From assembly GCF_026914265.1 (NCBI RefSeq), contig NC_069126.1:29839854-29903853 (forward strand): 64,000 bases of DNA, read 5' to 3'. The stretch is from Mya arenaria. Its lineage: Eukaryota; Mollusca; Bivalvia; Myida; Myidae. The notes under the pieces are model-generated. The model saw nothing but the letters and a program-made list of their open reading frames with translations, was not told the origin of the DNA and ran no database searches. Position 1 is the first letter of the stretch, and each line of letters opens with the position of its first letter. Both the position numbers and the translations under genes were made by a program. Positions 21,286-64,000 of this stretch are shown here, in pieces.

Positions 21286-22103
21286 TATTATGTATACTTA
21301 TGCGAAACATTTCGGTCAATCCCAATCAATTAAATTCCAAACTGTTTCTGTAACTTAAACTTCATGCAACGATCAACCACGTGCACATGCATTTAAGAAT
21401 CCAATATTGAACGTCTATTATTTTAGACTAATGCATATATATAATACACATAATGTTGGCTGAAAATGGCTTGATGATTGTCTAAATAAGTCGACATTTA
21501 TTGCAAAATGGTGTTCTCATAACTAGTTTGCAAAGAGCTAGCGTCGAGGCAGGACTTCCTTGTATCCCACTACATGTATATTTTATGACATGTATACATA
21601 ATTTATGTACGTTGCTTCAAAGTTCTCTATAAACTCGAGTTTCCTGGGAAATTCTTTCTCATGTCGCTTATATGACATTTAAACACAAGGTGGTCATTGT
21701 GATTAAGAAATCCCTTTACCGTTGAAATGATGCCCTTAAAATTACGATAAACCACAAACATAAAATACAGCTACAGACGACCGTACACAGACTTCCGTTT
21801 TCGCTTTCACTTTCACTTTGGGCTCATGCAGAAAATTTAAATATAAATATATAAAGTATAATAAAAATCAATTAAATTAATAATGTCTTAAAGAGATTTT
21901 CATAACTAATACACCGATAATTTGCTCAACGGATTTTTTTCATTAATGATATCAATATTTGCTCCGATACAGAACACACGTGTATTTCTACTTCCGGGAA
22001 AAACAGACCGTCGATTTCTCGTAACTTATATTTAAGATTACAATGTTTCAGTAACTTAATTTTATATATTTTCTAGAACTTACTGTCGACATAAAAAATA
22101 AGT

Positions 22104-41110: not shown

Positions 41111-41421
41111 AAGGATATTTGATTCAATTGTTTGCTGGGAAATGGGAAATAGGAAAAACTGATAGAAAATCGAGGGATATTTGGTTCTTTTGTCTGCTCG
41201 GAAAATTGATGTTTTTAACAGGATAAACTGATAGAAAAAGAGGGTTATTTGATACTTTTTATTTGCTTGGAAATGGGAAACAGGAAAAAACTAGCTTTTT
41301 CCCTGGGAAATGAAAAAAAAATATATTGGGAACAACTGTCTGAATGGAACAAGGGATTTGTTTTACTGTTCTAGATAATGGAGGAAACAAAAGAAGTTAA
41401 AGTGGAATTAATGAAATGATT

Positions 41422-41627
41422 ACAATAAAGAACAAACTACATTGTATTTAAATATTACATTCAAAAGTTTTTTTTGTAATTTAGAAAATGAAAATACTGA
41501 AATCTTGTCACTTTAACTTTTTGTGATGATAATTTTGCATTACCTAATATAATACTTATCATCTATACCTTGTACTTGTGTTCATCTTTGCCTAAGATGT
41601 GTTGGTTGTCATTGTTATGGAAATAAA
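41422..41627 (+). promoter_or_regulatory. Candidate NOG1 polyadenylation signals
   Basis: AATAAA occurs at about 41425 and again at 41622-41627, roughly 0.3 and 0.5 kb beyond the NOG1 stop. Either could define the 3' end. Confidence 0.4.
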
Positions 41628-41699
41628 TTCATGAGAAAAAAAAATGTTAATATAGCTGGATTTTCTTAATTCTTGTCCCAAAGGTCGGAAATATTTTCT

Positions 41700-42720
41700 G
41701 CATTGACAATTGCTTCGCTGGTCAAAGGTCATGGTCGCATTAAAAGGTCAAGGGCCCATTTCCGGACTTCATTTGCTAAACTGATTAGATATTTGTGTTG
41801 TACTCTGTGACACGTTTAACTTACCAAGGTTGTATTCAGAATCGATGTTGGTACAAAGCCTTGGTCAAGGTCACAATGCATGGTCTTGAATTGGAACTGA
41901 TCCACATCTATACGTATTGAAGTAAATACATTGGGTCGCGTGTTTAATGTGACGTAAATAGTTCATGATGGAACGTTGCCTGTCAAGGCCGAGGTCACAA
42001 ACCATAGGCATGGTTAAAGCCTTGATTATTCATGATGACACATTGCTGGATCGGATACAAGGTTTCAATACATGGTCATATGTTTAAGCCTTTAATATGA
42101 GTCTATCGCATACTTCCTTCACTTATTGAAGTTAATGGACGACACTAGGTCACATATTAAATATTTGAATGTGTCATGAATAATTCATGATGGAGCATTG
42201 CCGGATCAAGGTCAAGGTTACTATACATGTTTAATTCTTAAATGTGACGAAAATAATTAATGATTAACATCACTTGATCAGGATCGAAGACACAATACAT
42301 TGTCATAGGCTTAAGCCTTGATTTTGAGTCTGCCTCATATCTCTATCACTTATCGAAGTTAATGGACGACATTGGGTCACATGTTCAACTCCTGAATGTG
42401 ACCAATAATTATGATGGAACATCGCTGGATCATAGTCAAGGTTTTAACGCATGGTCATAGGTTTAAGCCTTGATTTTGAGTCTGGTGCACATTTTCTAGA
42501 CTTATTGACAATCTGGCTCACATGTTATATACATTAATGTACTGTAAATATTACGGGGAACCACAAGATCACATGATCCTGAGATCGGGTCTTAAACCTT
42601 GTACATGTCCCTCTTCTAAACTTAATGAAAGTGTATTAGCGATATTGGATCACATTTGATTGTCACGTGAGGAGTACGTGACGGAACCTCATATGGTCAA
42701 AGTCATTGTTAAGTACTAGG
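41700..42720. repeat. Diverged tandem repeat, unit about 150 bp
   Basis: Several units share 'catggtcataggtttaagcc', 'ttgattttgagtctg', 'cacttat(t/c)gaagttaatgga', 'cgacattgggtcaca' and 'gatggaacatcgctggatca' in a constant order. It fills the NOG1 to secreted-protein intergenic space. Confidence 0.7.
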
Positions 42721-43042
42721 TCAAGGGTTTGAACTTTTGTTAAGTGTTTGATTTCACATGTAAAAGAACTTAAACGAAACATGCCCACATTTTCAACTCC
42801 TCTAGGCGACATGCACAACTTTTAAAGCTGACCTATATTTCTAATATTGAAGTATATGCATAGACCACATGTTCATCTCGTGAATTTCTTTCGCATTACC
42901 TGTATTATCGGGGTCTAAATAACCATTTCGTGTCAGTTCTTTATTTTATTCACATTATAAGTTACATATTAGTAATCAGCAATGAAACGCCTTTCAAATG
43001 ATACCAACCTTATATGGGGACATCAGGCATCAACATTTAACA

Positions 43043-43494
43043 TTAAAGGGACTAGACACCAGATGGTCCCTAAATCGACAAATACAGTATTTCCTCAAAA
43101 CAAGACTGGAATATTGTCAATACGAGCCAGTATAAGGACCACGAGGACGAGAATACATGATTTTATATGATTAAAAGATTATTATGTCGCTGTCTCAACT
43201 GAACTTACCCGTTTAAAAATAGCCCATACTGGTTCCCTGTTTATAGTGAGTATTTTTTTTATTTTAGCGTGTGAAAGTCAGACAGACCAATATACCGACG
43301 CTGTTTTTAAATTTACTGGGTGGTAAACCTGCCCAGTTAATTTTGAATTGGAAACACACGCACAAACTGTCAAAGATAGATGTGTCGTAAGCGATGTGAT
43401 ACATCAGTAGCTAAGATTCAATGCGCTGAACACAAAAATATTAATTTCTTTTATTTTTCTTGCAGTTGAATAATCTGGTATCTAGGCCCTTTAA
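43043..43494. mobile_element. TTAA-ended element, 'AAAGGGACTAGA' family, complete copy
   Basis: TTAAAGGGACTAGACACCAG at the left is mirrored by 'ctggtatctaggccctttaa' at the right, 452 bp overall, with TTAA at each end. It shares ends with the larger copy in the G6PC intron. TTAA targets are typical of piggyBac-mobilised elements (inference). Confidence 0.7.
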
Positions 43495-43678
43495 GGTAAA
43501 TCAGAGAATTAGCTTATTTGTGGGTTGGACTCCTTCATATTCAATAAAAATCGCGCACTTAACTGAAAATTGCCAAGCTGTGTTCCTAAATGTCCCTTTA
43601 AATTACCGATGTACATTCTATTTCTAAAGACTTTTGACCCCATATTTTAACACAAAGATAAGCAGACATTACTTAGGG

Positions 43679-43686
43679 TATAAAAG
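43679..43686 (+). promoter_or_regulatory. TATA box of the secreted-protein gene
   Basis: TATAAAAG lies 37 bases before the ATG at 43723. That distance leaves only a very short 5' UTR, as often seen for strongly expressed secreted products. Confidence 0.65.
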
Positions 43687-43722
43687 GAATAAGCACCACG
43701 TGTTGACCTCACTTTTGCCAGT

Positions 43723-45942
43723 ATGAAGTTACTAATAATTGTTTCCATCGGGCTATTAGCGGCAGTTGACGGAGCAGCCCGGGGACGCCGGGCGCTCCAG
43801 GCCATGGACGCATTTTCTCTCCAGTGTAAGTGAAATCTTCTTTACATGTTTAAAACAGTTAACAGATAATGTTATTCATAATTTTTGAAACAACTTAAAA
43901 TTATCGGGTTGCTAACGGCTGTGAACGGAGTGGCTAGAGTGCGCCGAGCGCTTTAGACCATGGATGCTAATACTGCTAGGTTTTACGGAAGAAATGTGCT
44001 TTTGCCCTAGCTACCGTTCGAAGGGAATAGCCCCCCACCAAAGACCATGTGCCTTAGATTAAACAAGATGTCATGACATTGTTGATTTTTGTTGGCTTTT
44101 TTAACAACTGTCGAGCTGAAACATAATTGGATGTATACAAACACGAATATGAGAGCAGATACGTCTTAGATGAAGAATATAATACCCTAATATGCAACTG
44201 GAAAAAGCGCTTGCATTAGAATCTAGCTATGGTTGGGTTTTCCGACTAGTGCAGTTGTTACCGCACTTGTTTCTCACCAAGGCGTCCCGGGTTCGATTTG
44301 GGGCCTGATCGTACGTTAGTTTGCTTTGATGGTCACCAATCCGGACAAGTAGGGTTTTTTACACGGAACTTCAATTTCCCACACAACACAAGACCACGCA
44401 CTCGCGCAACATCGTGCCAACTATAGTGGCTTAACATAACGTACTTTCTCCCAAATCGTTGAAAAATAACTATAAACGAAACCAGCAATGATGCTGATAA
44501 CTCATACATTGTTTTCTAAAATTTAATAAATGCTTTGTTTTTACATGTATTAAAACATCATTCAATATCACTCAGTTACATCAGTTATAAATGTGTTAAG
44601 TAACTCATCGGTATTCAATATAAAAAGAGTCGAGGTACAGTCGAACCTCGATGGCTCGAACCCCAAGGGACCGGCAGAAATACCTCGAACCTTGAACAAT
44701 TCGAGCCAAGCGGTTATGCTTAGTTAAAAAAAATCGGTTCTTTACATCCAGTTCGACCCAACGTGGAATTCGAGCCAAGCGAGTTCGAGCCAACGGGGTT
44801 CGACTGTAGTGTCATATATTTAGAGTTGTTAACGTCAACGTCGATGTGCAAAAACCTTTACCTCGGTCATACCTTAAACGTCGTTTAAGATATTGCAATG
44901 AAACTTGGTACACATGTTGCCAAAGACAATACGCTGTTGCTTAGCAATGCCCAAAATTCTGACTAAATATTATAATTGTGAGGTGATATCAATTTTTTGA
45001 CAAAAACAAACAGACGAGCGTACGCTACGCGGCGATCTTATTTCTATTTAAGTATTCTTATCTTGTTGAAATTATTTAAAACTGTGTAACCATTTCTTTC
45101 AACATACTATTAAAGTAGTGTGACATTATTACAATGTACTTCGTAACAAAACAGATAACATAGCTCTGACATGATTCAATGAAATGCCACAGTTAGAAAA
45201 CAACCTACATTTTAAGCCAATGAAATTGCACAAAGGCAATCATTAAGTACTAGGCTAAATCCTTAAGAACTTTTGCGGGTATTTTAATGTCCGCCTACTG
45301 CCACTCATCCGATACACACTCTGATGCCAAAATAATATATTACCCAAACCGTAAATAATAAGTTATTGAGTCAACAAATGTTTAGACAGGAAATAAGTCT
45401 TCTTCTTCTTCTTCTTCTTTTTCTTCTGCTTCTTCTGCTTCTTCTTCTGTTTCTTCAAATACTTATTCTCCTTCTTCTTATTCTGGTTCTTCTTCTAGTT
45501 CTTCTTCTTCTGTTTTTTCTTCTTCTGTTTTTTCTTCTTCTGGTTCTTCTTCTTCTTTTTCTTCTTCTTCTGGTTTTTCTTCTTCTTCTTCTTCTTCTTC
45601 TTCTTCTTCTTCTTCTTCTTCTTCTTCTTCTTCTTCTTCTTCTTCTTCTTCTTCTTCTGCTCCTTCTTCTTCTTCTTCTGCTCCTTCTTCTGCTCCTTCT
45701 TCTTCTTCTTCTGCTCCTTCTTCTGCTTCTTCAAATACTGCTTCTGGTTCTTCTTCTTCTGGTTCTTCTTCTGGTTCTTCTTCTTGTTCTTGTTCTTCTT
45801 GTTCTTGTTCTCCTTCTTCTTCTTCTTCTTCTTCTTCTTCTTCTTCTTCTTCTTCTGGTTCTTATTCTTCTGCTTCTTCTTCTGGTTCTTCAAATACTTT
45901 TTCTTCTGGTTCTTCTTCTTCTGGTTCTTCTTCTTCTGGTTC

Positions 45943-45999
<57 letters not shown>

Positions 46000-48900
46000 T
46001 TCTTTTTTTTCTTCTTTTTCTTCTTCTTCTATATTACCCAAACCGTAAATAATTAGTTATTGAGTTAACAAATGTTCAGACAGGAAATAAGTCTTCTTTT
46101 TATTTTTCTTCTTCTTCTGCTTCTTCTTCTGCTTCTTCTTCTGCTTCTTCTTCTGCTTCTTCTTGTGGTTCTTCTTCTTCTTCTGCTCCTTCTTCTGACT
46201 TTTCTTCCGCTTCCTCTACTTCTGTATCTTCTTCTATTCGTTATATCTATAATACATTACAGCCTTCACACAGTTGTTTCGCCAAACGCTGCTGAACAAG
46301 ATCGCACTGGAGATGAACAACACCGTGGACATGTCACGTGACCTTAAGGTCAAGATGGACGCCTGTAAGGTCCAGGTCACCGCCAAAACGGACCAATGCA
46401 AGTCCGCCGCTCAGTCAGCCTGCCAGTAAGTCTGCTGTAAAACACGCACAAAACATTAAACATGAAGTAAACGCATTAAAGCAGCACTCTCACAGATTGA
46501 ACGTTTTGACAACTTTCAGCTAATTTTTGCGAAAATCCATGGAAACCAGTTAAATAAGACTGCTGACAAAAAAATAGATCGCAGATTTTTGTAATTAAGT
46601 TAAAAAAATGATGTTTTGTGAATTTTTCTTAAACCGTAAGTAATGGTTTAGGCCATAAAGCAATAATTTTTGAACGGAAATATGAAAATCTACGGTCTGA
46701 TTTCTTGTCAGCAATCTTATATCATTGGTTTGCAGATATTTACGCAAAAATTTGCTCTTTCGAAGACAAAAAATAAAAAAGTTGTAAAAATGATAAATCT
46801 GTGGGAGTGCAGCTTTAATGAAAACTTCAGAAAGTTATAAAATGGCCGTGTTGGCGATGTTTCATGTGAATAATGTACTTGAGTTAAATAGCAGTATGTG
46901 TATACCACGTGATAAATTGCGTCATAGATGCTACATCGGAAGGCAATATTTTGATTTGAAAAAATACTTTAAACAAAGATAACTTCACTATTTCTTCACC
47001 ATTTTAAATGAAACATAGCGCAGTCTACGCTGCCTACGGAGCCCCACCTTCAATCTTTTACCAGAATTTGATCGAGAGTTTAGTTTCTTAAGACACTTCG
47101 ACAAACCTTTTCACAATACGGCCGTCTGACGGAGCACTGTCAAAACATTATTTTGGAAACAGGTCTGTCGAAGTGTTTGATGAAACTAATGACCTCATCA
47201 AATTTTGGTGATAAACAAATGCGGGGCTCTTTAAGCGGCATAGACTGCCCTTTGTTTCATTTAAAATGGTGTTGTAAATGAAAAGTTATCTTTGATTTAA
47301 GTCTTCATTTTAAGCAATTTTTTGCCTTCCGACGTAGCATGTATGACGTCATTTATCACGTGGTATACGCACACTGAATAGGGAATATGTTGAATTTTTA
47401 TCAGCCAAAAATATGCAAAATATTATTTTTTAATTCAAAGGAAATCCAAATGGCTTCTACAGCAGATACCAAATGGACACGTAATTAATCATAACAAAAG
47501 TATACCCGTACTTTTGTTCCACACCACTTTCATCTTAATATTACTAACAAATTTCCAGTTGTTGGACAGGACTGTACCATACGTACCTGGCGACTCTTCG
47601 ACAGGCACAATCAACCCTTCCTTAAAGCGTCAAAGTTTACTTCTTTTTCAATATAGGAGAAAAAAAAGTTATAAGATGTGCACCATTTTGGACTAGAAAT
47701 TGTTAATTTTTTATGGGGGAGTTCCCACAACCGCTCCGTTCACAACTGCCAACACTTTCAACTAAATACATTTCGGGTTTGAGGTAGGGGCGCAAGCCAA
47801 AAGGTTACGCCCTAAGTTAGATCCCCTCTAACGTCGAATTCTGGATACGCCCCTGCAATCGTAACAACTCGGCCATCTCCGGCAAGCTCCAAATTCTGTT
47901 GGATAATGGCGGAGGTGTTTCGATCGCAATCGGCATAAATCATTTGGTTCCTGGCTGAAAGCTGAAACAGTTCTTCATTAGCCAGTGTTCATTACATCGC
48001 GTTGCTTAGCAACTGGCGGACAATGTCTCGAGTGGATCCGATGTATACAATTCTGATTTATAATCATAACTTCATACCCACGATATCTTTGTCTTTTCTC
48101 TGTAGAGCTGACCCAAGCTTCATGGATTACCTGAACGCTGGAGCAAACCTGGTCAACCCATACACTTACCTTGAGGGGCCGTTCAACGATATGGCCTCTA
48201 AGGTTGGGGACGCCGTGGACCTTCTAGGCGACAAAGCAAATGGTTTCCTAAACTCCGTGAAAGATCTTGGAGGTTCCGCTGTTGGTGGAGTTTATGATGG
48301 CTTTTCGGTAAGTTTATACTAGATTAACTTCAGCTATAATTTGTAGTGCTTTGTCATAGTCGTTGTGATCATAAGACATACTTCGAGATAACGACATTCG
48401 ATTTAACATAAATACATAAAGTGTATATAACCAAACTTATTCGATTTTTTTCGCATAACCAGAACATCGAGATAACAAAGTTCGACATAGCGAGTTGTGA
48501 CTGTATATTTGTTATAAATGTATTTTTATTTCCCTTTTCTGTTCGCTGTTTTGTGAGGATTGTGGTTTTTGAGACCAGGTTTTTCCAAGGGTGCAGGTTT
48601 TCCATCCACCATTCGGTTGCATATAACTCTCCTACTTTTTCCTTCCATTTTAATAGTTTATCACTCAATTTTTACTTCTAACGGACTGACAGAAGTATTT
48701 AGCTCGGCTTGTACATGTACAAAGTATATTCATCGTCAGTACAAACTAAATATTAGTTCATAATAAACATGAAATACACATAAAATATAACATAACATTG
48801 TACTCGTATATTAAACAATAACACTGTTTATCATATATCTTTATTTACCCTTTTTGCTAAAACCGTTTTATGAATGCATTTGTATCTTCGTCAACATCTG

Positions 48901-51900
48901 AAGTCGATTATTGGAAAACTGTTTTGAACGCATCAATCCAGATATTGACAAAGAATGCAGGTTAAATTTATTAGATTGTGTTTGTAACGTTTATATGAAC
49001 ATGTGCTTATTTAACCTACCATATTAATCATATTATTTACAGTCGGCATTCAACGGTTTCAAGGACCAACTCAGCTCCCTCGGTGGTTCCATCCTTGACG
49101 CTGGAAACAGCGTCATCGACACCGCCAATCTCATTGGCGACGGCTTTACTGACCTCGGAAGCAGTATCGGAAACGTCGGAACAGACATCGGGCACACGAT
49201 TGGGGACATCGGTGGCAGCATTGGACACGCTATTGGAGGTATGCAGTAGTTCTTAAGTGCATTATAGATTTTATGGGGCATAAAAAATAATACCATTGTT
49301 CCCGGTTTGATGCCAACCCCCTCCCCCTCCCCAAAAAACAAAATATAGATAAAATAATAAAAAAAAAAAAAATAAATAATAAAAATATGTATAAATAAAT
49401 AGGGTATAAGATGGAATGTAGGTCGGGAAATCCCTTTTTATAAGGCGAATTGTTTTTAAGATTTTTCTGTTACCCAGAACTTAAAGAGCATCTATAAGAT
49501 CAGTATTAATTATCATTACTGATCTTGTATTTAGAGTATTTTAGACCAAAACACTTAATTTTTACCTTTTGAATAACAAATCAAACAAATAATTTCTCAA
49601 GGCAAATATAGGTTAACGCTCGCGTCATAAAGGGAAGGCCGGGGAAATGGAAACCTTTTTACGCCTTAGTATCTTAAGAACCTTTTCTTAAGTATTGCAC
49701 AGAACTTCGGTTTTTCCATACTCAGAATGCTAATGACTATAACAACATAACAGTACAATCCTGGTTTGAACCAAGATCGAAGAGAACAGAAATCGATTGT
49801 ACAAATGAGCATCTATTTTGGAAGGTTTTTCACAACACCGAATAAATAAGAATTTGGCCATTCGGCCCTTTCCCATTCTCATTCATCAGAGGTTTGATAA
49901 TGATGAATCTGATATCTACTGTACGCATAGCATCATCTCTCAGGTTAGCCTATTTTAAGAGAAATCACTTTTTGTGATACAAGCGTAAAGTCAATGCGTG
50001 CATTATAATCTCTTCATAAGGTCGAACGGCCGTACATACGATTATTTTTGGCATTAAGTTATATTTATATTCCTATAACCTTCATTAACAGAAGCTAGGT
50101 ACTCTTTGACATTTATCAATGATTTTTTTTTTCTCAGGCATCTTCGGCCGACGTGAGCTTGACGCCCAGACCCGCCAGTGTATGGAGAAATGCGCCCCCT
50201 GTCGGCCACTCCTTCTTCCCACTCAGTCTGATATCATCACTTCAGGTAAATGCAACAATTTGACGTCATCACCTCAGGTAAATGACAAAAATTGTCATCA
50301 TCGCCAAAGGTCAATGAAACTGCCTGATTCCATAACCGAATGTAAACCGTAGTTGTCGCGGGTAAAATGACACAGTTGGACATCAACGCAGATATATGGC
50401 ACAGTTTGACGTCATTACTGTTAATCATCATATATGGTCTGAAATCATCAACGCAGGTAATTGACACATTCTTACGTCTTCGTCACATTTAAAATGACAC
50501 AGTTTGACCCTTTTGCCGAAAAGCTTTAGTAAAAAATGAAATACTCAAGGCTTTGATTTACAAGTTAATTTATATCAGAGTCAAAAGAATATCATTCTAT
50601 TAGTTGCTGTTTATTAAGAAAAATAAACAATACAACTCAATCTGAACAAATTACACAAAATGGAGCCTATTTAAAATATATGAACGAGCCCCTTTAAAGA
50701 CAAGCCGGTTAGAAATGTGATATTTATTTAAGTCTGTGGACCTGGGATTGTAAACACGAACAAGACGATCCAGGACCGTGTCGGCAAGCTCCAGAGAGTC
50801 TATGACGCCACACTGGACAAGATCCACCCCATCATCACCAAGGTAACGTAGGGTTACTTTAGAGTTTCTAACTAAGCCTGTTATTAAGATACTGCAATAA
50901 AGTTAACTCTTGTAAGGCGACCATAAATTAATTGCTAAATTTTCACCCCGGCGTGCACCCTCTTTTTTCCGCCGCCCCTAAAATTTAATGACTGAAATAA
51001 AAATGTTGAACCAGGATTAGTGTTTGCGTATCGGTCCGGTACTGTCCGGGAACGGCATTTATTCATACTTACGATGTCGGGTATGACATTCACATGTGAA
51101 AAAGGAAAATTGTTACGCTCGTGTTCGTCAGGAACATTTGTATATGGTCCCTTATAAAACAGAAAGAGCATGGACACATATTCAACGGTAAAAACAGGCA
51201 TCCATCTAAGAAAAAAGTCAAACCCCTCCCCATTTAACAAAGTATAATTGAATGAGTATCTAGTAATAAATTTATATTGGCCATAGGCGTACTTTGTAGA
51301 ACTCCCTTCAGGCACCGTGACTAGATAAAAGGAACTTGTGAACGCAGACTTTAAGTTAAGTATAGAAATCGCTAGAGCTGAAACTAACTCTCGCCCATGT
51401 ACGTGAAGTTAGCGGCCTAGCGGCCTAGCGGCGTGAAGTTAGCGGACTAGCGGCGTGAAGTTAGCGGCCTGGCGGCCTAGCGGCGTGAAGTTAGCGGCCT
51501 GGCGGCCAAGCGGCCTAGCGGCGTGAAGTTGGCGGCCTAGCGGCCTGGCGGCCTAATTATTTTTTCTATTTCCAAGCAATTGTTAATGCGTTTTTTTTAA
51601 AAAACAATGATAAATCAAGGTTTTTTATTCATATAGTTACATAGCGGCCTTAAATTGTTATATATTCAGAATATTTTTCTTTACCTTTTATTTTAAAACA
51701 ATTTTAAATTAACTGTTTTATGCACAAATTATCACTCTGAAGCGTTTTTCAACTTTTTTTCAAAAAAGTCGATCAAGCACTTCAGCGACCTAGCGGCATA
51801 GCGGCGTGAAATTAGCGGCCTAGCGGCCTAAATTGAATCCTATTTCAAAGCATGTATACATGCATTTTCTTCTAAAACAATGACATTTTAACTGTTTGAA

Positions 51901-52800
51901 TGCACAAATTAACACTTTGAAGCAATTAGCGATAATCAACATATTTTTTTCCAAAAAAGTCGATTGAGCAGTCAGCTATTTCAAAGCATTAAACATGCCT
52001 GATCTTCTTAATCAATGATATATTTACTGTTTATATGCACAAATTATCACTCTGAAGTGTTTTTCAACTTTTTTTCAAAAAAGTCGATCGAGCACTTCAG
52101 CGGCCTAGCGGCCTAGCGGCGTGAAGTTAGCGGCCTGGCGGCCTGGCGGCCTAGCGGCCTAGCGGCCTAAAATGGTTACCTATTTCAAAGAATGTATACA
52201 TGCATTTTCTTCTAAAACAATGACATATTAACTGTTTGAATGCACAAATTAACACTTTGAAGCTATTAGCGATAATCAACATATTTTTTTCCAAAAAAGT
52301 CGATTAAGCAGTCAGCTATTTCAAAGCATTAAACATGCCTGATCTTCTGAATCAAAGATATATTTACTGTTTATATGCACAAATTATCACTCTGAAGCGT
52401 TTTTCAACTTTTTTTCAATAAAACTTATGAAGTAACTTAGGTAAACTTTTAGAGAAGTCTGTCATCGGCATCGAACAAATGGTTGATACTCGAAACGTTG
52501 TTTGAGTGCCCAATAGGGCGTTATAATTCACTCTTATTCGAAACATAAGGAAAGTCTAACTGCTGGTTTTCATCACCAAATGAAATTTCCAGGTTGAAAT
52601 CGTTCATCACCAAATGAAATTTCCAGGTTGAATTCGACCCCTCCTCCATGAACGCCCAGATGCAGCTTGCTAATGTCCACATCACTGTCCGCCTGAACGG
52701 ACGCGACCAGAGCTACAAGACGACTGTGCCCTACAGCATGATGAACCTGCCAACCACAGCCCACAACATGGCCATGGAGTTCTGGGGAAAGTCACAATAA
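43723..52800 (+). CDS. Uncharacterised secreted protein, 7 exons, 351 aa
   Basis: I do not recognise this family. Exons: 43723-43825, 46263-46425, 48106-48307, 49043-49238, 50138-50245, 50733-50842, 52627-52800. All junctions are GT/AG and phases match. It starts with a clear signal peptide (MKLLIIVSIGLLAAVDG), then a basic RGRRALQ stretch that could be a processing site. Exon 2 is helical with three cysteines. Exons 3-4 are rich in Gly, Asp and Ser with a glycine-zipper-like run (DIGHTIGDIGGSIGHAIGG). Exon 5 carries RQCMEKCAPCRP. The last exon reads VEFDPSSMNAQMQLANVHI and ends MEFWGKSQ; it may be a small beta domain. There is no transmembrane segment beyond the signal. The TATA box and short leader suggest strong, tissue-specific expression (inference). 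The boundary of exon 6 (AAG|TCTGTGG) is the least certain. Confidence 0.75.
44225..44345 (+). repeat. tRNA-derived SINE-like fragment
   Basis: 'gactagtgcagttgttacc' (A-box-like) and 'cccgggttcgatttgggg' (B-box-like) are spaced as in a tRNA-derived SINE head. 'tttgatggtcaccaatccgg' follows. It lies in intron 1 of the secreted-protein gene. Confidence 0.45.
44636..44808. mobile_element. 'ACAGTCGAA' small inverted-repeat element, copy 2
   Basis: TACAGTCGAACCTCGATGGC at the left and 'caacggggttcgactgta' at the right, 173 bp with TA ends. Same family as 14418-14578. Confidence 0.75.
45398..46237 (+). repeat. Very long TTC trinucleotide tract in intron 1, in two blocks
   Basis: Block one (45398-46030) and block two (46092-46237) are almost pure TTC/TCT on the sense strand, interrupted by TGC, TGG, CTC and AAATAC words. 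The 64-bp sequence in front of block one (from 45337, 'atattacccaaaccgtaaat') is repeated in front of block two (from 46031), so a whole unit was duplicated. The second block runs up to the exon 2 acceptor at 46262, giving an extreme polypyrimidine run. The Leu/Phe-rich plus frames and Lys-rich minus frame here are by-products. Confidence 0.95.
46476..46818. mobile_element. TTAA-ended inverted-repeat element, 'AAAGCAGCACTC' family
   Basis: 'TTAAAGCAGCACTCTCACAG' at the left, mirrored by 'ctgtgggagtgcagctttaa' at the right, 343 bp with TTAA at both ends. The arms continue as 'ttttgacaactttcagc' against 'aaaaaagttgtaaaaat'. In intron 2 of the secreted-protein gene. Confidence 0.7.
46892..47376. 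mobile_element. Near-complete hairpin (foldback) element, 485 bp
   Basis: The left arm (cagtatgtgtataccacgtg ... aaggcaa ... ttaaatgaaaca) is mirrored for more than 150 bp by the right arm, and the central part is also mirrored (cttcgacaaacc against ggtctgtcgaag). Direct repeats AATAG abut both ends (46887-46891 and 47377-47381). The two halves together could form one long hairpin. Confidence 0.7.
51000..51310 (-). repeat. Dispersed repeat with a surviving 126-codon frame
   Basis: Related to 36530-36755. The minus strand is open for 126 codons (LRWMPVFTVEYVSMLFLFYK, then HVNVIPDIVSMNKCRSRTVP). Its presence as a repeat in two introns suggests a mobile-element piece, not a host gene. Confidence 0.5.
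51405..52430. repeat. GC-rich minisatellite and compound duplication in intron 6
   Basis: A 9-10 bp 'gcggcctag' / 'gcggcgtgaagtta' repeat occurs at 51405-51560, 51785-51830 and 52095-52170. Between and after these lie about 250-bp AT-rich units (51835-52090 and 52175-52430) that are nearly identical, with 'gcattttcttctaaaacaat', 'gcgataatcaacatattttt' and 'catgcctgatcttct'. An older relative lies at 51565-51780. Confidence 0.85.
52571..52638 (+). repeat. 34-bp tandem duplication of the last splice acceptor
   Basis: 'catcaccaaatgaaatttcc' followed by 'aggttgaa' occurs twice, from 52571 and from 52605. Both copies carry an AG acceptor (52592 and 52626). Only the second keeps the reading frame; the first would reach a stop after about a dozen codons. 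Confidence 0.85.
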
Positions 52801-52842
52801 ATGAACTAGTATTAGCCCTAGTGTGTGGACTGTTTAGCACAT

Positions 52843-52848
52843 AATAAA
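52843..52848 (+). promoter_or_regulatory. Polyadenylation signal of the secreted-protein gene
   Basis: AATAAA lies 43 bases beyond the stop codon at 52798-52800, implying a short 3' UTR. Confidence 0.65.
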
Positions 52849-52947
52849 GGAATAAACAATCAACTGTGTTGTATTTAAATAACATTGATCGAAACGCAAT
52901 CTCATTGAGGGTGTTTAACGAGCGTAACAACGATTTCCTCAAAATTC

Positions 52948-53105
52948 AATCAAACCCCGTTGGCTCGATTCCCTCTTTCGCTCGAACTGGATTTAAAGGT
53001 CGTTTCTTTATACTGAAGGTAAGCATTCCCGCTTGGCTGGAAATCCCCGAGGCTCGAGGTTTTTTGCTGGTGCCTGTGAGTTCGAGCCAACGGGGTTCGA
53101 CTGTA
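52948..53105. mobile_element. 'ACAGTCGAA' small inverted-repeat element, copy 3 (diverged)
   Basis: The left end is worn (atcaaaccccgttggctcga); the right end 'caacggggttcgactgta' is intact. It lies just beyond the polyadenylation signal of the secreted-protein gene. Confidence 0.6.
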
Positions 53106-53274
53106 TAACGAGGTCCGACAATAAACTGCGGTACACATTAGTGGATTTTTGTTAATGATGACACATTTTGTGCAGCAGCAAACACTCACCGTAAAATATT
53201 TGTATGTCGTACCATTAGGGTTGAATGTCGCTTGAAGCAGACAGTAGAACACAAAACAGACGTGCATCTTGAAA

Positions 53275-56200
53275 TATAGAGATGCATCTCCATACATAGA
53301 GGCACAGGACTAAATATAGAGGTACACCTCCATACATAAGGTACAGGTCTAAATACAGCGGTGCAACTCCATACATGGAGTCTAAATATAGAGGTCAACC
53401 TCCTTATATAGAGGTATATGTCAAAATATAGATTTGCACTTCCATCAAAACATAGAGATACCGGTCTAAATATAGAGGTACACCTCCTCACATGCAGGTG
53501 CAAATTCAGGTCTGAATAAAGAGGTGCACCTCCATACATTGAGGTACAGGTCTAAATATAGAGGTGCACCTTCATACATAGAGGTACAGGTCTAACTAGA
53601 GCTATCACTGAAGGTGATTAGTACCCCCGAACGCCGCCTCTCATTATGATTTATCATTGTATGAAGTTTTATGAAATTTCATCTAGTAGTTTTCAAGTTA
53701 CTGTCCGGACAAAAGTTTGACAAAAAAACACAGAAAAAGGCAATAACTCTGTAATTTGCTAAAATAGTGTAATGATTCATGAACACTGAACTCCTTCTCA
53801 TTGTGCTGTACCATTGTATAAAGTTTTATTACATTATATCCGGTAGTTTTCAAGTTATGCTCCGGACAAGAAAAAAGTAACAAAGGGCAATAACTCTGTA
53901 TTTGGCTGAAATAGAATAGCGGTTCCTGTACACTTAACTTCCTCTCATTATGATCTATCACTGTATGAAGTTTTATTAAATTCCATCCAATAGTTTTCAA
54001 GTTATGCTCCGGACAAGAAAAAGTAACAAAGGGCAGTAACTCTGTAATTAGCTGAAATAGAATTGCGGTTCCTGTACACTGCACTCCTTCTCATTATGAT
54101 ATATCACTGTATAAAGTTTTATTGAATTCCATCCAATAGTTTTCAAGTTATGCTCCCGACAAGAAAAAAAGAACAAAGGGCAGTAACTCTGTAATTAGCT
54201 AAAATATAATTATGGTTCTTGTGCACTGCACAAAATAAATTCCATCTAATAGTTTGCAAGTTAATGTCTGGAAAAATATTTGACATCAAAAAAATAATAA
54301 AGGGCACTAACTCAGTTATTAGCTAAAGTAGAGTTATGGTTCTTGAACACTGCACTTCCTCTCATTGTGCTTTACCATTGTATGAAGTTCCAATGAATTT
54401 CATCCCGTACTTTTCAAGTTATACTCAAGACAAAAAAGTAACAAAGGGCAATAACTCAGTAATAAGCAAGAATAGAGTTATGGTTATTGTACACTGCACT
54501 TCCTCTCATTATGCTCTATCATTGTATGAAGTTTAAACCAATTCCATCCAGTAGTTTTTAAGTTAGGCTCCGGACAAGGTAAATTGCAACGGACTGACCG
54601 ACAAACCAACGGACCGACCAACCAACCGACCACAGGGTGACTCCAATATACCCCCTTCAAACTTCGTTTGTCGGGGGTATAAATATAGAGGTGCACCTCC
54701 ATATATAGAGGTACAGGTCTAAATATAAAGGTGCAACTCCATACATAGAGTCTAAATATAGAGGTCAACCTCCATACATAGAAGTACAGGTCTAAATATA
54801 GAGGTGCACCTCCATACATAGAGGACAGATCTGAATATAGAGGTACACCTCCATACCACATATAGAGGTACAGGTCTGAATAAAGAGGTGCACCTCTATA
54901 CCACATATAGAGGTACAGGTCTGAATATAAAGGTACACCTCTATCTATAGAGGCACACTTCTAAATAAAGAGGTGCACCTCCATCCATAGAGGTACAGGT
55001 CTGTATATAGAGGTACACCTCCATACCACATATAGAGGTACAGGTCTGAATATAGAGGTGCACCTCTATACCACATATAGAGGTACAGGTCTGAATATAA
55101 AGGTGCACCTCTATCTATAGAGGCACACTTCTAAATAGAGAGGTGCACCTCCATCCATAGAAGTACAGGTCTAAATATAGAGGTGCACCTCCATACATAG
55201 AGGACAGATCTGAATATAGAGGTACACCTCCATACCACATATAGAGGTACAGGTCTGAATATAGAGGTGCACCTCTATACCACATATAGAGGTACAGGTC
55301 TGAATATAAAGGTGCACCTCTATCTATAGAGGAACACTTCTAAATATAGAGGTGCACCTCCATTCATAGAGGTATATTTCTAAATATAGAGGTCAACCTC
55401 CATACATAGAGATGCCGGTCTAAATATAAAGGTGCACCTCCATTCATAGAGGTACAGGTCTAAATATAGAGGTGCACCTCCATACATAGAGGTACAGGTC
55501 TAAATATAGAGGTGCACCTCCATTCATAGAGGTACAGGTCTAAATAGAGAGGTGCAACTCCACACATAGAGGTGCCGGTGTAAATATAGAGGTTTACCTC
55601 CATAAATAGAAGTATAGGTCTAAATATAGAGGTACACCTCTATAAACAGAAGTACAGGTCTAAATATAGAGGTACACCTTCTCCCATGCAGGTGCAAGTC
55701 TAAATATAGAGGTGCTTCTCCTTGCATAGAGGTACAGGTCTAAATATAGAGGTGCTTCTCCTTACATAGAGGTGCCGGTCTAAATATAGAGAAACACATC
55801 CATAAATAGAAGTATAGGTCTAAATATAGAGGTAAATCTCCTCACATGCAGGTGCAGGTCTAAATATAGAGGTGCTTCTCCTTACATAGATGTACAGGTC
55901 TGAATATTAAGGTACACCTCCATACATAGAGGTACAGGTCTAAATATAGAGGTGCACCTCCTCACATAGAGGTACAGGTCTAAATGAAGAGGTGCACCTC
56001 CTCACATAGAGGTACAGGTCTAGATATAGAGGTGCACCTCCATACATAGAAGTACAAGTCTACATATAGAGGTACACCTCCTCACATGCAGGTGCAGGTC
56101 TAAATACAGAGGTGCACTTCCATTCATAGAGGTACAGGTCTAAATATAGAGGTGCAACTCCACACATAGAGGTTCAGGTCTAAATATAGAGGTTTACCTC

Positions 56201-56370
56201 CATAAATAGAAGTATAGGTCTAAATATAGAGGTACACCTCCATAAATAGAAGTATAGGTCTAAAATAGAGGTGCACCTCCATACATGGAGGTGCCGGTCT
56301 AAATATAGAGGTACACCTCCATAAATAGAAGTATAGGTCTAAATACAGAGGTTCACCTCCATAAATATGA
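53275..56370. repeat. 40-bp palindromic satellite
   Basis: The unit is built as AGGTCTAAATATAGAGGTGC then ACCTCCATACATAGAGGTAC. Each unit carries the palindrome AGGTGCACCT. Two blocks (53275-53597 and 54677-56370) hold roughly fifty units. Between about 54790 and 55570 a higher-order pattern repeats with a period near 380 bp (markers 'gaggacagatctgaatatag' at about 54821 and 55200). Short open frames within it are repeat artefacts. Confidence 0.95.
53598..54676. mobile_element. Mobile element with internal tandem repeats inserted in the satellite
   Basis: Starts near 'gagctatcactgaaggtgat' then 'tagtacccccga' and ends 'acttcgtttgtcgggggtat'. Between are about six units of 110-140 bp with 'aagttatgctccggacaaga', 'aacaaagggcaataactctg' and 'ttcctgtacactgcac', followed by a GACC-rich run. 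The plan matches the nested element at 16970-18110: tandem core, GACC tail, inverted CCCCC-containing ends. The satellite resumes immediately after it. Confidence 0.6.
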
Positions 56371-56374
56371 CTTG

Positions 56375-57430
56375 TATATTCAGAATGGCTTCTTTAAATA
56401 AGCTCAAATAAATGGATGTCATTGACTTCATTCACTGTCATTCACTTCATTGGTCCGAAATTGTTACATGCAATCTGATTAGCTACACCTTACCTAAATC
56501 CAATTTAAGCCACACTCTCTATTTTGACCAGTTTGTATGCTTATGACCAAAAACAATGCTTATATGTAAAGGTCTCTTGAACAATTCTTATTAACCTTCT
56601 GACTCAGAGTGAACAAAACATTTCTTTTGTTGCAATGTTGACAAATTCTGCAACAATTATAAATATGGCTTAAAGTTTCAAAATCCCTCAGAAAGTAGCT
56701 GTCTACCAAGGTGCATTAAATATGCAGAATATGCACCAAATGTAGAGCGAGACCAGAATTGATTTTCGCTGCCGTCGCAACTCTGTTCTCATTATCTCTT
56801 TTGTGATTATTATTATAAAATTCATTTCAATTTGTAAGTCATCACATTGCATTTCATTTTTTTTTCAGAAATAATTTGCATTTGATGACATCGAAACTGC
56901 AGGTTATGGGCAATATTGATTATCACCTCTGACTCTTGCATGTTTATAGCTGGTTGATAAAAAATGTTCTTAAGCTTTAAAAATGTGTTGGCGAAGAAAA
57001 CAAAACTTATATACTCAAAGCTTTTAATAACAATGTCCTGTCTTTTGTTTCAATTTGTTAAACATGTAATTATTTAAGCATTTTTTTCTATTATAGAATG
57101 TTTAAATAACAAACTAGTACATTTGTCACCATTAAATCAAGTTTGGAAATACTGGTACTAAGCACTTATTTTTTTCGATCTTACTAGCATAATATTAATA
57201 ACTGGCAAGTTTCAAATCCAGACAGAAAACAATGCCACGACATAATTTAATTTCATTATTACATTAGTATCACCGGTCCATGAAAGGTTTGACTAAAAAG
57301 TAAAACTATGATGAAAGAAAATGCTTTGATCAAACAAATTAACTTACAAAATTTACTTCTTGTCTTAGCAAAACAATACTGTAGAAAGCATAAATGATAA
57401 ACAATGGGCTGATTGTTCAGAACTTTGAAT
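56375..57430. other. Spacer with no supported gene
   Basis: AT-rich spacer between the satellite and the MITE at 57433. No exon or repeat boundary was recognised. Confidence 0.4.
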
Positions 57431-57432
57431 AA

Positions 57433-57760
57433 GGCCTAAAAAAAAATTGTTTGGTTAGGGTTACATCCTTCTCAAAAATAGGTAGGGTAGGTAGGCTTTT
57501 TAATTTTTTTTGTTATTAGGCTTTATATAAGAATATCATTTTCATCATTGGAGAATGGTGTTAAAGCTATCTTCTGTATAAGCATTTAAGGTTGAACTAC
57601 ATATTGAAAAGCAATTAAAAAAAAAAACGATAAAAAAACATTTTTTTTTTTTTTTAGTTTTTCATTTTTTTTTCAAACTGACTATAAAAACGGTAGGGTC
57701 GGCGCCTATTCCGTAGGTAGGGTCGGGTAACCCGAACCAAATGTTGTTTTTTTTTAGGCC
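57433..57760 (+). mobile_element. 'GGCCtAAAAA' MITE family, copy 4 (best preserved)
   Basis: The left end GGCCTAAAAAAAAATTGTTT then 'ggttagggttac' is mirrored by 'cgaaccaaatgttg..tttttttttaggcc' at the right, 328 bp. The core includes 'ggtagggtaggtaggctttt', 'tatcttctgtataagc' and 'actgactataaaaacgg'. Three other copies lie at 18732, 19481 and 26637. Confidence 0.8.
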
Positions 57761-57876
57761 TAAGTAAACAACATTGTTAACATCATTGTTGTTACCTTAA
57801 AATCTCTATTGCTCTGGAAATGTTATGGATACATTTGTGATATGCAGAACATTGAGGCAACCATTTCAGCTGTAGT

Positions 57877-57882
57877 TTTATT
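57877..57882 (-). promoter_or_regulatory. Candidate PTPMT1 polyadenylation signal
   Basis: AATAAA on the minus strand, about 160 bases beyond the stop at 58044-58046. Confidence 0.35.
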
Positions 57883-58043
57883 GTAATTTATGAGCACATC
57901 TAACATTCCAAGTTAAAAAGTTAATGACGATGTCGATAATCATGTTGTTAACTTTGACAAAGTTCTGAACAACTAGCCTATTATAGCTGAATAATCAGAA
58001 TCACAACTCAAGCCACAAAATACATAAATAATATCATATTGCA

Positions 58044-61000
58044 CTAAGCCCCCTTTTGTTTGTCCGTCCGTATGCTGGTATTATAGTAGTGTTGGATGGA
58101 AGCCAGCTGTTTCTCCCGAAGCCAGATATGTGGCCTCTTCTCTTCTATATGCGCAATGGCTTCTTCTGGATTCCAGCCATGCACCTTCAAAGGAAACAAG
58201 AGATGTTTGTTAACAATAAGCACCATGAGCGCCACTTAGTCAGAGACATGTGTAAGATTGAATAAATATTTTCGAAGAAGAAATGCATTTGTTATTAATG
58301 GTTTATGCACAAAGTTTTCAGGAAAGTGATCATCTACTGGTCAAGGACAAGCTTACAATTAAGGTCCCTGGTCCTCGATTACCTCTTTGTTAAGTTATTG
58401 CGTGAATAAAGCTTCTATAGCCTTGAATTTTGACCAACTGGTCAAGGCAACCTACTAGTTAATGCATGGAGAAGAAATGTTCTACCCCATAAAATATTCT
58501 GACTTAAGATTGAATGTCAATATGGTAGATAAAACTATGAAAAATAATACACCAGAATTCACTATTTAGGACAAAAATATAGCGAACATTTTCATAGTGT
58601 GGGACCACCGAACCTATTCTTGATAAAGGATCTCCAAGTCCCTCCCCTATAACAATTCCTACTCACCTTGACTAGATAGCAGGCGACCACAGTGGCACTT
58701 CTCGTGCGCCCAGCCTTACAGTGGACATACACGGAGCCAAGCTGTTCGTTTCTATACTTAATCATAAAGTCTACTGCTCGGCAGATCTTCTCATGACTTG
58801 GAGAAGCTGTGAAGTCGACTGTAGGAACTTTCAGTTGTGTTACACCAACAGCTGCCCATTCCTTTATACAGAAATACTCATTACTGACTTAAGTTTATAC
58901 AGAAATGCTAACAAATCTATTTTTAATACAGTACTCCTTTGTAGGACAAAGAATGAGTAGGTAACAATGGTTCCTCCCCTTAAAGGCTTTCGTTCACATT
59001 TTATAGGGCAAGACATTGAAAAAATTAGGGTGCATACAAAATGTTTGTTTCAATGATAAAACATCATCAATTTCAAAATATATAATAAAAGATCTTCTGT
59101 TGATAATCATTTAAAAATGTGAAAGAAATGCTTTATTTTGCTGGAAAGTGTTAGTTAGCTTATAAATTATTTTAAATTTGGATTTACAAATCTATCAGCT
59201 TCAAATCTGTAAAAAGATCAAGGAAAGAGGTCGCAACACTTATCTGGGGTATTATCCAATCGAACAAGGGGCAAAAATTGATAATTATTAAACAAACAGT
59301 AATGGCATTTAAACACATGTGCTTACCGTAACTGGTAACTTAAGTACTCAATACCATGTACATTAGGTACTGGATGCCATGTAAATATCTTAGAACATTT
59401 TTTTATTAGTTTCAAGTAACTGCCCATTGTACATACCTTCTCTGTATTACAGAAATCCTCCAGTTCCCAATCTTCATTGAGAGTAACAACTCCTTTCACA
59501 TTCTCTTCCTTAACCCTTTAGCACATAGACAAGTGGCCAGATTACACCTCCCAGTCAATAGCCATCTTACTGATAAGCAGTCCTTATCTGCATAGGTACT
59601 TTTCTGGATATTTGAAAATGAGAAAATGAATACAGCAGTATGACCTTAAAATCAATGTTACTCCAAATAATTGTGTCCAAATCTTTTTTATGTGAATTCA
59701 TTTTTTATAGATAATTAAATTATCTAATAAATGGTGTCAATGATGAAATATTAAATTATTTTATTTCAGCTGTGAATGTATTTTCAAGATGGATTTGTAA
59801 CATTTCTTTGAAATGTCATAATTGCATTAAATCAAAGGGTAATAAAATGCTGGGATCGATCTAATTTTTATTACCCCTACCCTAAAGACCCATCTGGATT
59901 AAAAAGCCGACAATTTATGTTCTTGTGTATTAATACACAGAAATATGTCAAGAATATCCGGTGTCATCCAGCTGAGAGATCCAGTCCAAGGTGTCTGTTT
60001 AACTTTATTACCCCCTCATAAAACTGTTTACAAAAAAAGAAAGCCAATAAATGATTTTCCGGTATGAATAAAAAGATCTAGATCAAACAAAACGCTTGCA
60101 CATGACCTATTTTACAGCCAAAACTATGATGGACATTATATAAGCTTCACAGAAAATTTACCCATCATTTTCTCATTTACTAATTGTTTCTTTTGTTTGT
60201 AAACAAAATATTACCTTTAAGTAAATATAATCTCAATTGATTTTAATGGTAAACTGAACTGACGTAATATATTTAATGATTTACGCATCAATGAATTTGG
60301 GGGAAATTCCATACAGTACTTAGCTCGTGGTCTTATTACGTCACAATGGGATATCACACCTGCGATTGGGAGTATAAACACCTTCTCAATTTAGCAGACG
60401 ATATTTTCAAGGGAAAATCAATACACAAAAGGTTAAACTTTAATTTTATAAACATCCGGGATATTGTTTACAAAAAGAAAGATGCAAAATTGAAATATTG
60501 AAATGACCCTATTGAAATATGCGGGCCATGCGTTTACATCCAGTAATGGATACGGTCGGCCAAATGCGTATACATCTGGTAATGAGCTATGTCGGCCTAT
60601 CTCGTATACATGCGCTAAAGGGTTAACAAGCTGAAACATAAATGTTTAATAATATTGATTAATCATCAAGTCTCTTTATCCATACATAGAGTTTGTTTTT
60701 GAAAGATTCTCTTAAAATGGTTCATTATGCTTATATTTTTGAATTATTGTATGTAAAAAACTGAGACAATTTAAGTAAATGTAAATGCTGAAAGGATAGC
60801 AGAGCTGAAGACAAAGTGAAAGATATGAAGAAATCCTTGTACACTGCGTCAGTGCTTGTGTGCCCAAAGATTATCAATACATCTAGGAGACAACTTTCCT
60901 GGTATTGCATATTTCAGTTTCTGGGCACTTTACTCTCCAATGCTGAGCACAAAACAAGGGAGTTACCTGTACCATTTTGTATGTCCTTAGTATCAAACAA

Positions 61001-61334
61001 ACAGGGATTGAACCTTAGAACTCCCATTACAGAAGCAAACACTCAACCACTTGGCCACCCAGGTGGTCAAGTATATGAACAGTAAAAGATTCTAGCTATA
61101 CCAGCAGTAATTTAATCTTAAAAGATTTACATAATTAAATAAAGTGATTTTAAATCTTTAGTAAGCGCTGACCATGTACATTTGACTTACCCATTTCGTC
61201 ATTCCCCTAAATGGTAGGGCACCCAATAGCACTGTGTCATCTATTCGATCATACCATCGGCGACTGCTAACCTTGCTCAGAAACACATTGTAGAAGAGAG
61301 TTGGGTAAAATGCCACCTTATTGAATAGACTCAT
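58044..61334 (-). CDS. PTPMT1: PTPMT1 mitochondrial phosphatase, 4 exons, exon 2 split by an insertion
   Basis: PTEN-like mitochondrial dual-specificity phosphatase; it dephosphorylates phosphatidylglycerophosphate in cardiolipin synthesis at the inner membrane. Exon 1 61191-61334 encodes [20 protein letters not shown] and ends [11 protein letters not shown]. Exon 2 is in two parts, 60623-60630 and 59437-59509, separated by the element at 59514-60622 and a TTAA duplication. Exon 3 58667-58861 carries the active site HCKAGRTRS (Cys123, Arg129 in the uninterrupted count). Exon 4 58044-58184 starts [13 protein letters not shown] and ends in the stop. All coding exons are phase 0, and the uninterrupted total would be 186 aa against 201 in human. 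As written, reading through exon 2 into the insertion gives a stop at 60433, before the active site. Skipping exon 2 (81 nt) would keep the frame. An acceptor-like TTTCCATTTCAG before the start (about 61381) suggests a 5' UTR intron. Confidence 0.9.
59514..60622. mobile_element. piggyBac-like non-autonomous element (TTAA target) inside PTPMT1 exon 2
   Basis: 1109 bp bounded by inverted ends: CCCTTTAGCACAT on the left and its counterpart ATGCGCTAAAGGG on the right (12 of 13 positions match). TTAA lies at both edges (59510-59513 and 60623-60626). Near the right end 'gtatacatc(t)ggtaatg' and 'tcggcc(t)a' words repeat, a usual subterminal feature. No transposase frame is visible inside, so it would need an enzyme from elsewhere. 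TTAA duplications with CCC/GGG ends are typical of piggyBac elements. Confidence 0.85.
60905..61078 (-). repeat. tRNA-derived SINE-like element in PTPMT1 intron 1
   Basis: On the minus strand 'gtggccaagtggttgagtg' is a good A box and 'ctaaggttcaatccctg' a good B box at about 35 bases distance. No functional tRNA acceptor stem was recognised. Confidence 0.5.
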
Positions 61335-61399
61335 TGCAGTGCCTTGGTATTCCAGCTGTATTATTCTTCTATCATTTTCTGAAATGGAAAGCATTTGAA

Positions 61400-64000
61400 G
61401 TGTGTGAGATGAAGTCATTTTTACCACAAATCAACAAATGCCCATTTTACTTTCATGACTTATAAGTATGATCTCCCTTTTCAATTGTTTGTGTAACTGG
61501 GAATCTGCCAGAAATTGATGCTAAGAATATGTATTCTCTTTAAAAATATAAATAAATGGTGTTACACTTACAGGAATCCAATATGCAATCTTCTATAAAG
61601 TATTTTATAAGAGAGTAATAGACATGTATGTGTAATGGTAAAAAAAACAAGGACAATAACAGTGTTCCAAATTCGCGGTAGTCCGATAGCCCGGGGTTAC
61701 CGAATTTCAGCTGGGGCTACCGATTTTCTGCAGAAATAGCCCAACCGGGCCACCATTTTTTTCCTAATGTAATTTAAATAAAAACATGTCAATTTAACAC
61801 GTATAGCATCATGTTTTTATACGATTATTTTTCAAGAATGCATCCTTTTAGGCAACTCGAGCGACTAAGTTGTGTTTTAGTCGCCTTGACAATGGCGAAA
61901 GATCAAAGCAAGGTCAGAATCGCTGAGTTTGACGATGATCAGAAAGTTAATTGCTCTGCGGTTCAGGACTGCAAGCCATGAGCTGAATGTTTTGTTTTTT
62001 TTCTATTAATATGTCAAGAGTTATAAAAGCCTGAGGTGACAAGTGATTATCGATCAGTTTGTAACCAGTATCTGTGTCTGTAAGCAGCAGTCAAACTCAA
62101 TGACGTCAATAACTCTGCCCATTTATGTAAATTAATGCATAACTTTGGCAGTTTTCGCTAACTACGATGGCTGTGAAAAACAGCAAAGCTAAATATCAAT
62201 ATCAAAATGATACTTTATTTATTTTGTTTGAATAAATTTTATTTATTATCGAAAATTAAATGATAGATTTTAAGTTTTTAATACGTAACAGAAAATTAAT
62301 ATTTTACAAATATCGTCTTAAATGCGCGGGAAACAGGTGCCCGTTTACTTCCTGTCAAATTTAATCAAAGTGAAAGGAGAACTGTTGGACATAGATAAAT
62401 TGTTGTCAGTGTACAGTACAGTAAGATTCTATGTTATACCTTTGAATTGCTTTGCCATTTATTTTAATAACATTTATAGGAATATTAATTGGCAATAGAA
62501 ACATCAATATTTTGTTTGTTTTTACTTCTGGAAATTGAAAGTGAAACTGAAAGTAGAAAAGAGAAATTGCACAATCACTGGTGCATATCGGATTTGACAA
62601 TGATGCATTAAATCATAGAACTAATAGTACATGCTTAATTCGTATCATCTTAAATAAATGATCTGTTTAACAGAGTCAGATAACATTATCTTCTTTTTTA
62701 ACTTTTTGAAAGCTTTATAATTTATATGTATCACTATAATTTATCTACGAGAAGTTCACTTCGCTCAATGCATTTTTGACGCATTGTCCAGATTGAACAT
62801 TTTTTGAATTATTGAAACTGATTGAGAGTGTTCAAGCGTGCTCGATTAGTGGTTGGAATCATATTCAAACTTCCCATAAATTCTTCCAAAAAAGTTCTTT
62901 ATGGTGTTTATGTTTGGGCTTGTGAAATTGGTTTCGGGCTAGTAAATTTTCCTATCTGGTAGCCCGATAAAATTTCCTATCTGGTAGTCATTCTAAAATG
63001 CCGTCCAGGCTTTTTTTTTACTGATGGTTAGCCTGGAACGTCATTCATAACAAAATTCGTAAACATGTAAAAACTGTCTATGAAATGAAATGGTCTTCAT
63101 TTGTATTCTGTAGCTTAAGACTGCCAATAAATACATTAATTCTTATCAATAACCATATCCATTTTGCAAATTCACAAGCTATTTCTTCAAAAAAGTAATT
63201 TAAATACCTGATTTCAGTTGACAGGAGCTTTCTTACTGCCAAAAAGGAAAAAGGTTACACACAACTATACTTTAAGGTTTCAAGAACATATGCTTGTAAA
63301 AAGGACTAAAAACTGACCTGGTCAAGCAATAGCCTACATTGCCCAAGGTGGTTCACAAATGGCAGTTATGGATATAAGGGAAGTAACTTTAACATGTATT
63401 TAATTTGTCATAACGTCCGATATTAAACGGCTCACACAAGAAAAACGACAGATACTCATGACATATTTCATAACATTCAATTAAGCCCAACAAAATCACA
63501 ACTTTAGTCGTTGAGTATAATCTAAGTCAGTTGATTGTTATAATAATTAATCACAATTGTATTCATTTATTTTCGCATATCTTAAAATTTTCATTTTCAA
63601 TGTCATTTACAGCAAGGTAGCTTATAAATGCAGGAACAGTCAGGTTTGTGTGATTTGTTATCTCCCCGAAATCCATAGATTTTTTGGCTCGTTTGAAGAT
63701 CCTTCAAATTTTGGCAAAATGTTAAAATGATTATAGAAGTAAATATAGAAACGAATCGCAGGTCAGTGAAATATATGATTTCAAGAGTGTGTTTTTGTTA
63801 TAATTCTCTTAAGCTACCACATGCGTTTCTGATGCCTCCAGCAAGAATTAAGCGTTTGGCTACTGTGGTTTATTTTGGTAAAATATATGAATTATCAGCC
63901 TTCTCAATTTTCATAAAAAGTTCACTTTGGCAATTTTAGGGCGGGGTGGGTGTAGGGGCGCCGAGTACACCGGGTACGCCCACTGTACCTGAAACCGCTA
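61400..64000. other. Region with no supported gene; probable repeat remnants
   Basis: Around 61665-61760 and 62935-62995 the words 'gatagcccggggttaccg', 'ctggggctaccg' and 'tatctggtagcccgataaaa' recur, which suggests an old mobile element of about 1.3 kb between them. The rest is AT-rich. The upstream non-coding exon and promoter of PTPMT1 should lie somewhere here but cannot be placed. Confidence 0.35.

Follow-up and report, generated by a model that had tools for sequence, protein, structure and literature searches.

The window, by which we mean the whole 64,000-nucleotide stretch of Mya arenaria DNA analysed here (C5:29839854-29903853, in a genome of 1.216 Gb and 18 contigs), carries on its minus strand a PTPMT1-like gene whose coding sequence is spread over four exons, the second of which is interrupted by an inserted element. 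This raises the question of whether this gene can still give rise to its enzyme, what the element is and when it arrived, and from where the animal obtains its PTPMT1. The parts of the locus are as follows (a slash marks an exon boundary).

61191..61334, minus strand: PTPMT1-like exon 1, coding part, 144 nt, from the ATG to the donor TGG/gtaagt; aligns with mouse PTPMT1
60623..60630, minus strand: upstream piece of exon 2, CTTGTTAA, 8 nt, its last four bases being the target-site TTAA; acceptor tttcag/CTTG at 60630
59514..60622, minus strand: inserted element, 1109 bp, non-coding, piggyBac-like, with the ends CCCTTTAGC...GCTAAAGGG
59437..59513, minus strand: downstream piece of exon 2, 77 nt, starting with the second TTAA (59513-59510); donor AAG/gtatgt after 59437
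60433..60435, minus strand: stop codon reached on reading from exon 2 into the element
58667..58861, minus strand: exon 3, 195 nt, holding the active-site motif HCKAGRTRS
58044..58184, minus strand: exon 4 through the stop codon, 141 nt

When the element and one TTAA are left out, exon 2 comprises 81 nt (27 codons), as opposed to 1194 nt with the insertion, and has phase 0 at both ends, and the spliced frame with the joined exon amounts to 186 codons plus a stop. In a search of PDB sequences the best match was mouse PTPMT1 (3rgo_A; E-value 1.9e-47, the next molecule having 4.3e-10), and the alignment runs without a gap across the joins of exons 1-2 and 2-3, in keeping with a previous sequence-only reading of the window according to which exon 2 is in frame at both ends and family-like once the element is removed. 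Moreover, the product has a Pfam DSPc domain (E-value 4.5e-19) and the C-x5-R active site is present as HCKAGRTRS. The assignment of the interrupted gene to the PTPMT1 family, PTP-type phosphatases of the mitochondrion with a role in lipid metabolism, is supported by these matches. A literature search for PTPMT1 combined with mollusc found no paper.

The same reading had described exon 2 as split by a TTAA-flanked 1109-bp element and had translation through the element ending before the active site. Every junction was checked, from the acceptor at 60630 to the donor at 59437, and both descriptions hold: the element-containing reading gives a product of 113 aa, with its stop at 60435-60433 and thus upstream of HCKAGRTRS. 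Judged by this frame, the window version of PTPMT1 is most likely null. The inverted ends that had been noted for the element are likewise present, but they are longer than described, i.e. 17 bp including TTAA with 94% complementarity, and begin with CCC.

Searching the genome with the exon gave 668 candidates, the best 40 of which were scored, and 41 matches were listed, 40 of them full-length including the window copy. All 40 full-length copies (8 + 32 loci) were read and have the same ends with TTAA on both sides (40/40), which bears out that this is a TTAA-flanked mobile element; together with the matching empty site (see below) it excludes chance. These best-scored copies, which represent the closest relatives and not a random sample, are approximately 99% identical, with 0.09-0.63% substitutions relative to their majority consensus. 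A 24-mer from the left end occurs 272 times in the genome, and its reversed control 0 times. The longest start-to-stop frame fully within the element is 54 aa, and another one of 68 aa enters from the flank. TTAA duplications and CCC ends are hallmarks of piggyBac elements, and by its ends, its copies and its frames the element is classed here as belonging to a young non-coding piggyBac-like family.

With non-autonomous (MITE-like) piggyBac elements it has in common the TTAA duplication, the CCC/GGG and inverted ends, the lack of coding capacity and the many near-identical copies, but its length of 1.1 kb exceeds what is usual for a MITE. For PF13843, a transposase family of the piggyBac superfamily, the genome gives 120 matches; at the three best loci, which are the ones that were read, the ends are TTAACCCATTTC and just TTAACCC is common to these and the element. 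Comparing the element end with viral_contigs gave 0 matches. Among the 40 empty sites no other copy in a coding exon was supported, based on five sites read and with the proviso that short exons would escape. The two longest open frames over empty sites (loci L024 and L021) are tandem repeats, and 0/200 shuffles reach either length; at both loci the copies sit in tandem repeats, with an open frame of almost 200 codons spanning the empty site. At locus L025 (C6:46683708-46686409) a partial copy (positions 1-977) abuts a full copy at a TTAA, as if one copy had inserted in an internal TTAA of another.

A protein search of the genome for PTPMT1 (22 candidates, all scored, 19 matches) identified one further full PTPMT1, which lies on the plus strand at C5:32006063-32008230, i.e. 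2.1 Mb away and inverted; the other 11 matches fall in different phosphatase-like loci, with E-values of 0.016 or worse. In this second version the four exons recur with splice sites and reading frame intact, and exon 2, at 81 nt and with one TTAA, constitutes an exact empty site at C5:32006770-32006850. Loss of PTPMT1 from the assembly is ruled out by this intact version. The search also located what the sequence-only reading had put forward, next to a recent and heterozygous insertion and to skipping of exon 2, as "another functional copy", in the form of an intact-frame version that could be another copy or another allele. The two versions are identical at 185 of 186 residues and nine codons differ, eight of them synonymously and one giving Q115R (CAG in the window version, CGG in the other), corresponding to dN 0.0023, dS 0.0685 and dN/dS of approximately 0.03.

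With respect to the age of the insertion, comparison of the window copy with the consensus of the 40 copies shows five substitutions and one deletion of 3 nt. Two of the substitutions also occur in the copy L002 (one of these in L029 as well) and another in L027 and L037, and being shared these are probably older than the window insertion. The deletion and the remaining two substitutions are clustered within ten bases and appear to represent a single event private to the window copy; the 29-mer carrying this change has one genomic occurrence, at the window. The DNA flanking the insertion is 1.8-1.9% divergent between the versions (42/2287 and 58/3065 sites). With one private change against this flank divergence, the insertion most likely happened after the two versions had split, and the earlier description of it as recent agrees with the single local change seen against the consensus. 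Since piggyBac-type excision is precise, the empty site in the other version could in principle be the product of such an excision.

That the insertion is an assembly artefact, in which a repeat was misjoined into the exon, appears extremely improbable: the element is indeed high-copy, which would favour it, but the TTAA duplication is exact, the element is full-length, the empty site in the other version matches, and a 29-mer within the window element is unique in the genome, which is unexpected in a misplaced repeat. Taken together, we consider it very probable that a young piggyBac-like insertion disrupts one of two PTPMT1 versions, and that the intact version 2.1 Mb away covers the loss. 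Specifically, a young non-coding piggyBac-like DNA transposon would have jumped into a TTAA within coding exon 2 of one of the two versions; the disrupted version would then encode 113 residues followed by a stop ahead of the catalytic motif and be null, and the animal would keep making PTPMT1 via the intact version with its uninterrupted 81-nt exon in the same assembly. The insertion is a fresh instance of an event type already known.

The relationship between the two versions was addressed by comparing the DNA around them, which extends over the following stretch.

19612..64000, no strand assigned: window stretch with inverted colinear homology to C5 approximately 32.00-32.07 Mb; continues beyond the right end

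Its left limit, 19612, reflects the extent of the sequence retrieved for aligning. The two arms align, inverted, in 16 colinear blocks whose 40,718 columns include 1141 mismatches (2.8%), and further out C5:30.400 Mb aligns, in inverted order, with 31.466-31.467 Mb (91-93%). For the non-repeat parts of C5:30.600 and 30.953 Mb no partner was found among the best 40 candidates scored per search; likewise, a query from C5:29.700 Mb, which is almost all repeats, gave no partner near 32.2 Mb among the best 40 candidates scored. By these comparisons each arm measures at least 0.54 Mb, and the spacer is roughly 0.7-1.1 Mb and apparently unique, where the edges of arms and spacer are approximate because the best 40 candidates were scored per search.

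Three insertions are present in the window only (1387, 609 and 1109 bp) and stretches of approximately 2.0, 2.4 and 19.7 kb in the other arm only, the 19.7-kb one without clean junctions. The 1387-bp insertion (24072-25458), which has no counterpart in the other arm, has the inverted ends CCGTAAATGACTGGGT/ACCCAGTCATTTACGG and an apparent TA duplication and looks like a second young DNA transposon. The 609-bp insertion (22208-22816), also absent from the other arm, is associated with a 9-bp duplication, AAACTTAAT. Divergence along the arms is mosaic, with 24 substitutions in 40000-50000, 139 in 37900-39900 and 50 in 50000-51500, and a near-identical tract (40054-50291; 30 substitutions in 10,237 bp) lies between stretches having up to 50 per 500 bp. 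This 10-kb tract may reflect recent shared haplotype ancestry, gene conversion or a collapsed assembly.

The alignment of arm to arm is fragmented over a tandem array at 54676-56367 (unit 40 bp, approximately 42 copies), just downstream of the end of PTPMT1 exon 4 at 58044. Elsewhere in the window, a TCT-rich array (45398-46235) gives long meaningless open frames of up to 238 aa, and a frame at 8112-8543 whose matches to DDE_Tnp_4 (24.5 bits, cut-off 24.8) and HTH_Tnp_4 are both weak is probably a transposase remnant.

Our reading of these data leans towards the two versions being two haplotypes of one heterozygous locus, the second of which was retained in the scaffold as a duplicate. The mosaic divergence and the several insertions confined to one side speak for alleles, and the allele reading is favoured by the origin of the assembly: the part of PMC10663159 that deals with it describes one highly heterozygous wild clam, 1.22 Gb, 17 scaffolds, and the use of FALCON-Unzip, purge_haplotigs and Hi-C. 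For a mussel, the summary given in PMC7653742 describes high gene presence-absence variation and hemizygosity, and the cause of false duplication by retained haplotypes is set out in PMC7203741. As in such a false duplication, long colinear segments a few percent apart lie on one scaffold with one-sided insertions; what differs here is that the segments are inverted and the spacer is apparently unique. Had an allelic contig remained in the assembly and been flipped during scaffolding, the inverted layout with a spacer would result, but the inverted arms and the spacer, where no partner was found at two sampled places, do demand such a wrongly turned contig for a simple retained haplotype, and purge_haplotigs, to go by the assembly description in PMC10663159, had been applied. 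Among the 40 element copies, no two were found to have junction flanks in common (two partial matches are out of register), and the 40-copy sample accordingly shows no sign of widespread duplicated haplotypes. When other same-chromosome repeat pairs were examined as possible large duplications, 4/4 matched beyond the repeat, as does the single control pair on two chromosomes, so this comparison does not discriminate.

The chief alternative, possible if less likely, is that the versions are true paralogues, generated by an inverted segmental duplication with arms of at least 0.54 Mb each, and that the window copy is a young pseudogene tolerated thanks to the working copy; such a duplication would replace the allele reading but leave the insertion itself untouched. 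The inverted arms and the apparently unique spacer would fit such a duplication, and gene conversion could produce a 10-kb tract with so few substitutions (30 in 10,237 bp) beside stretches of up to 50 per 500 bp. Against this, the dN and dS values (0.0023/0.0685) indicate that both versions were constrained until recently, and alleles need no extra steps; moreover, the homology spans long stretches beyond the gene and includes several one-sided insertions, which is usual in bivalve haplotypes.

Could the window version still yield protein, the element being removed from the RNA by SOS splicing, by use of a cryptic intron or by skipping of exon 2? We regard this as very unlikely. The splice sites were scored with a generic matrix, giving sequence scores only: the native donors have 4.65-8.4 and the native acceptors range from -1.12 (exon 3) to 4.38, while the best stop-free in-frame donor reaches -1.9 and the in-frame acceptor TTAAG/GAA -7.6, both of them weak. 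The acceptor at the end of the element scores better (-0.07, above native exon 3) but runs straight into a stop. An element serving as a ready-made in-frame intron is unlikely given these poor in-frame scores. In this respect it departs from the introners in the account of PMC9860276, which it otherwise resembles as a non-autonomous DNA transposon that duplicated its target, has inverted ends and sits in a coding exon: the window element and its target duplication supply no good in-frame splice sites. Skipping of exon 2 would preserve the frame, the exon having phase 0 at both ends, but would drop 27 residues that align gap-free with mouse PTPMT1.

SOS splicing, which as outlined in the review PMC13247085 excises DNA transposons from animal mRNAs, makes removal conceivable in that the inverted 17-bp ends are able to base-pair and close the fold predicted for the RNA, a fold given without shuffle control at such length and one that any element with inverted ends would form. 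The cases introduced in that review resemble the present one in being exonic DNA transposons with inverted ends; here the element is known from DNA alone. That it is cut from the mRNA of the window version by SOS splicing via its paired ends, and the exonic transposon tolerated in this way, would be a faint prospect, and rescue of any kind is unnecessary given the intact version. If it did occur, it would as far as we know be the first natural example from molluscs, a literature search having found none. The preferred interpretation, a null version accompanied by an intact one, calls for no such step.

In the portion of PMC11788212 that concerns PTPMT1 loss, biallelic variants cause human disease and knockout zebrafish are abnormal, and this harm fits an insertion that is sheltered by an intact version. 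For annotators, a conserved gene seems broken when seen from the window alone, and counting both versions may overcount. With the filled and the empty site both sequenced, the locus provides a clean pair, one member of which has a young transposon interrupting a coding exon of an important gene, and it permits a direct test of null-allele carriage in a bivalve as well as a test of transposon removal from mRNA in molluscs.
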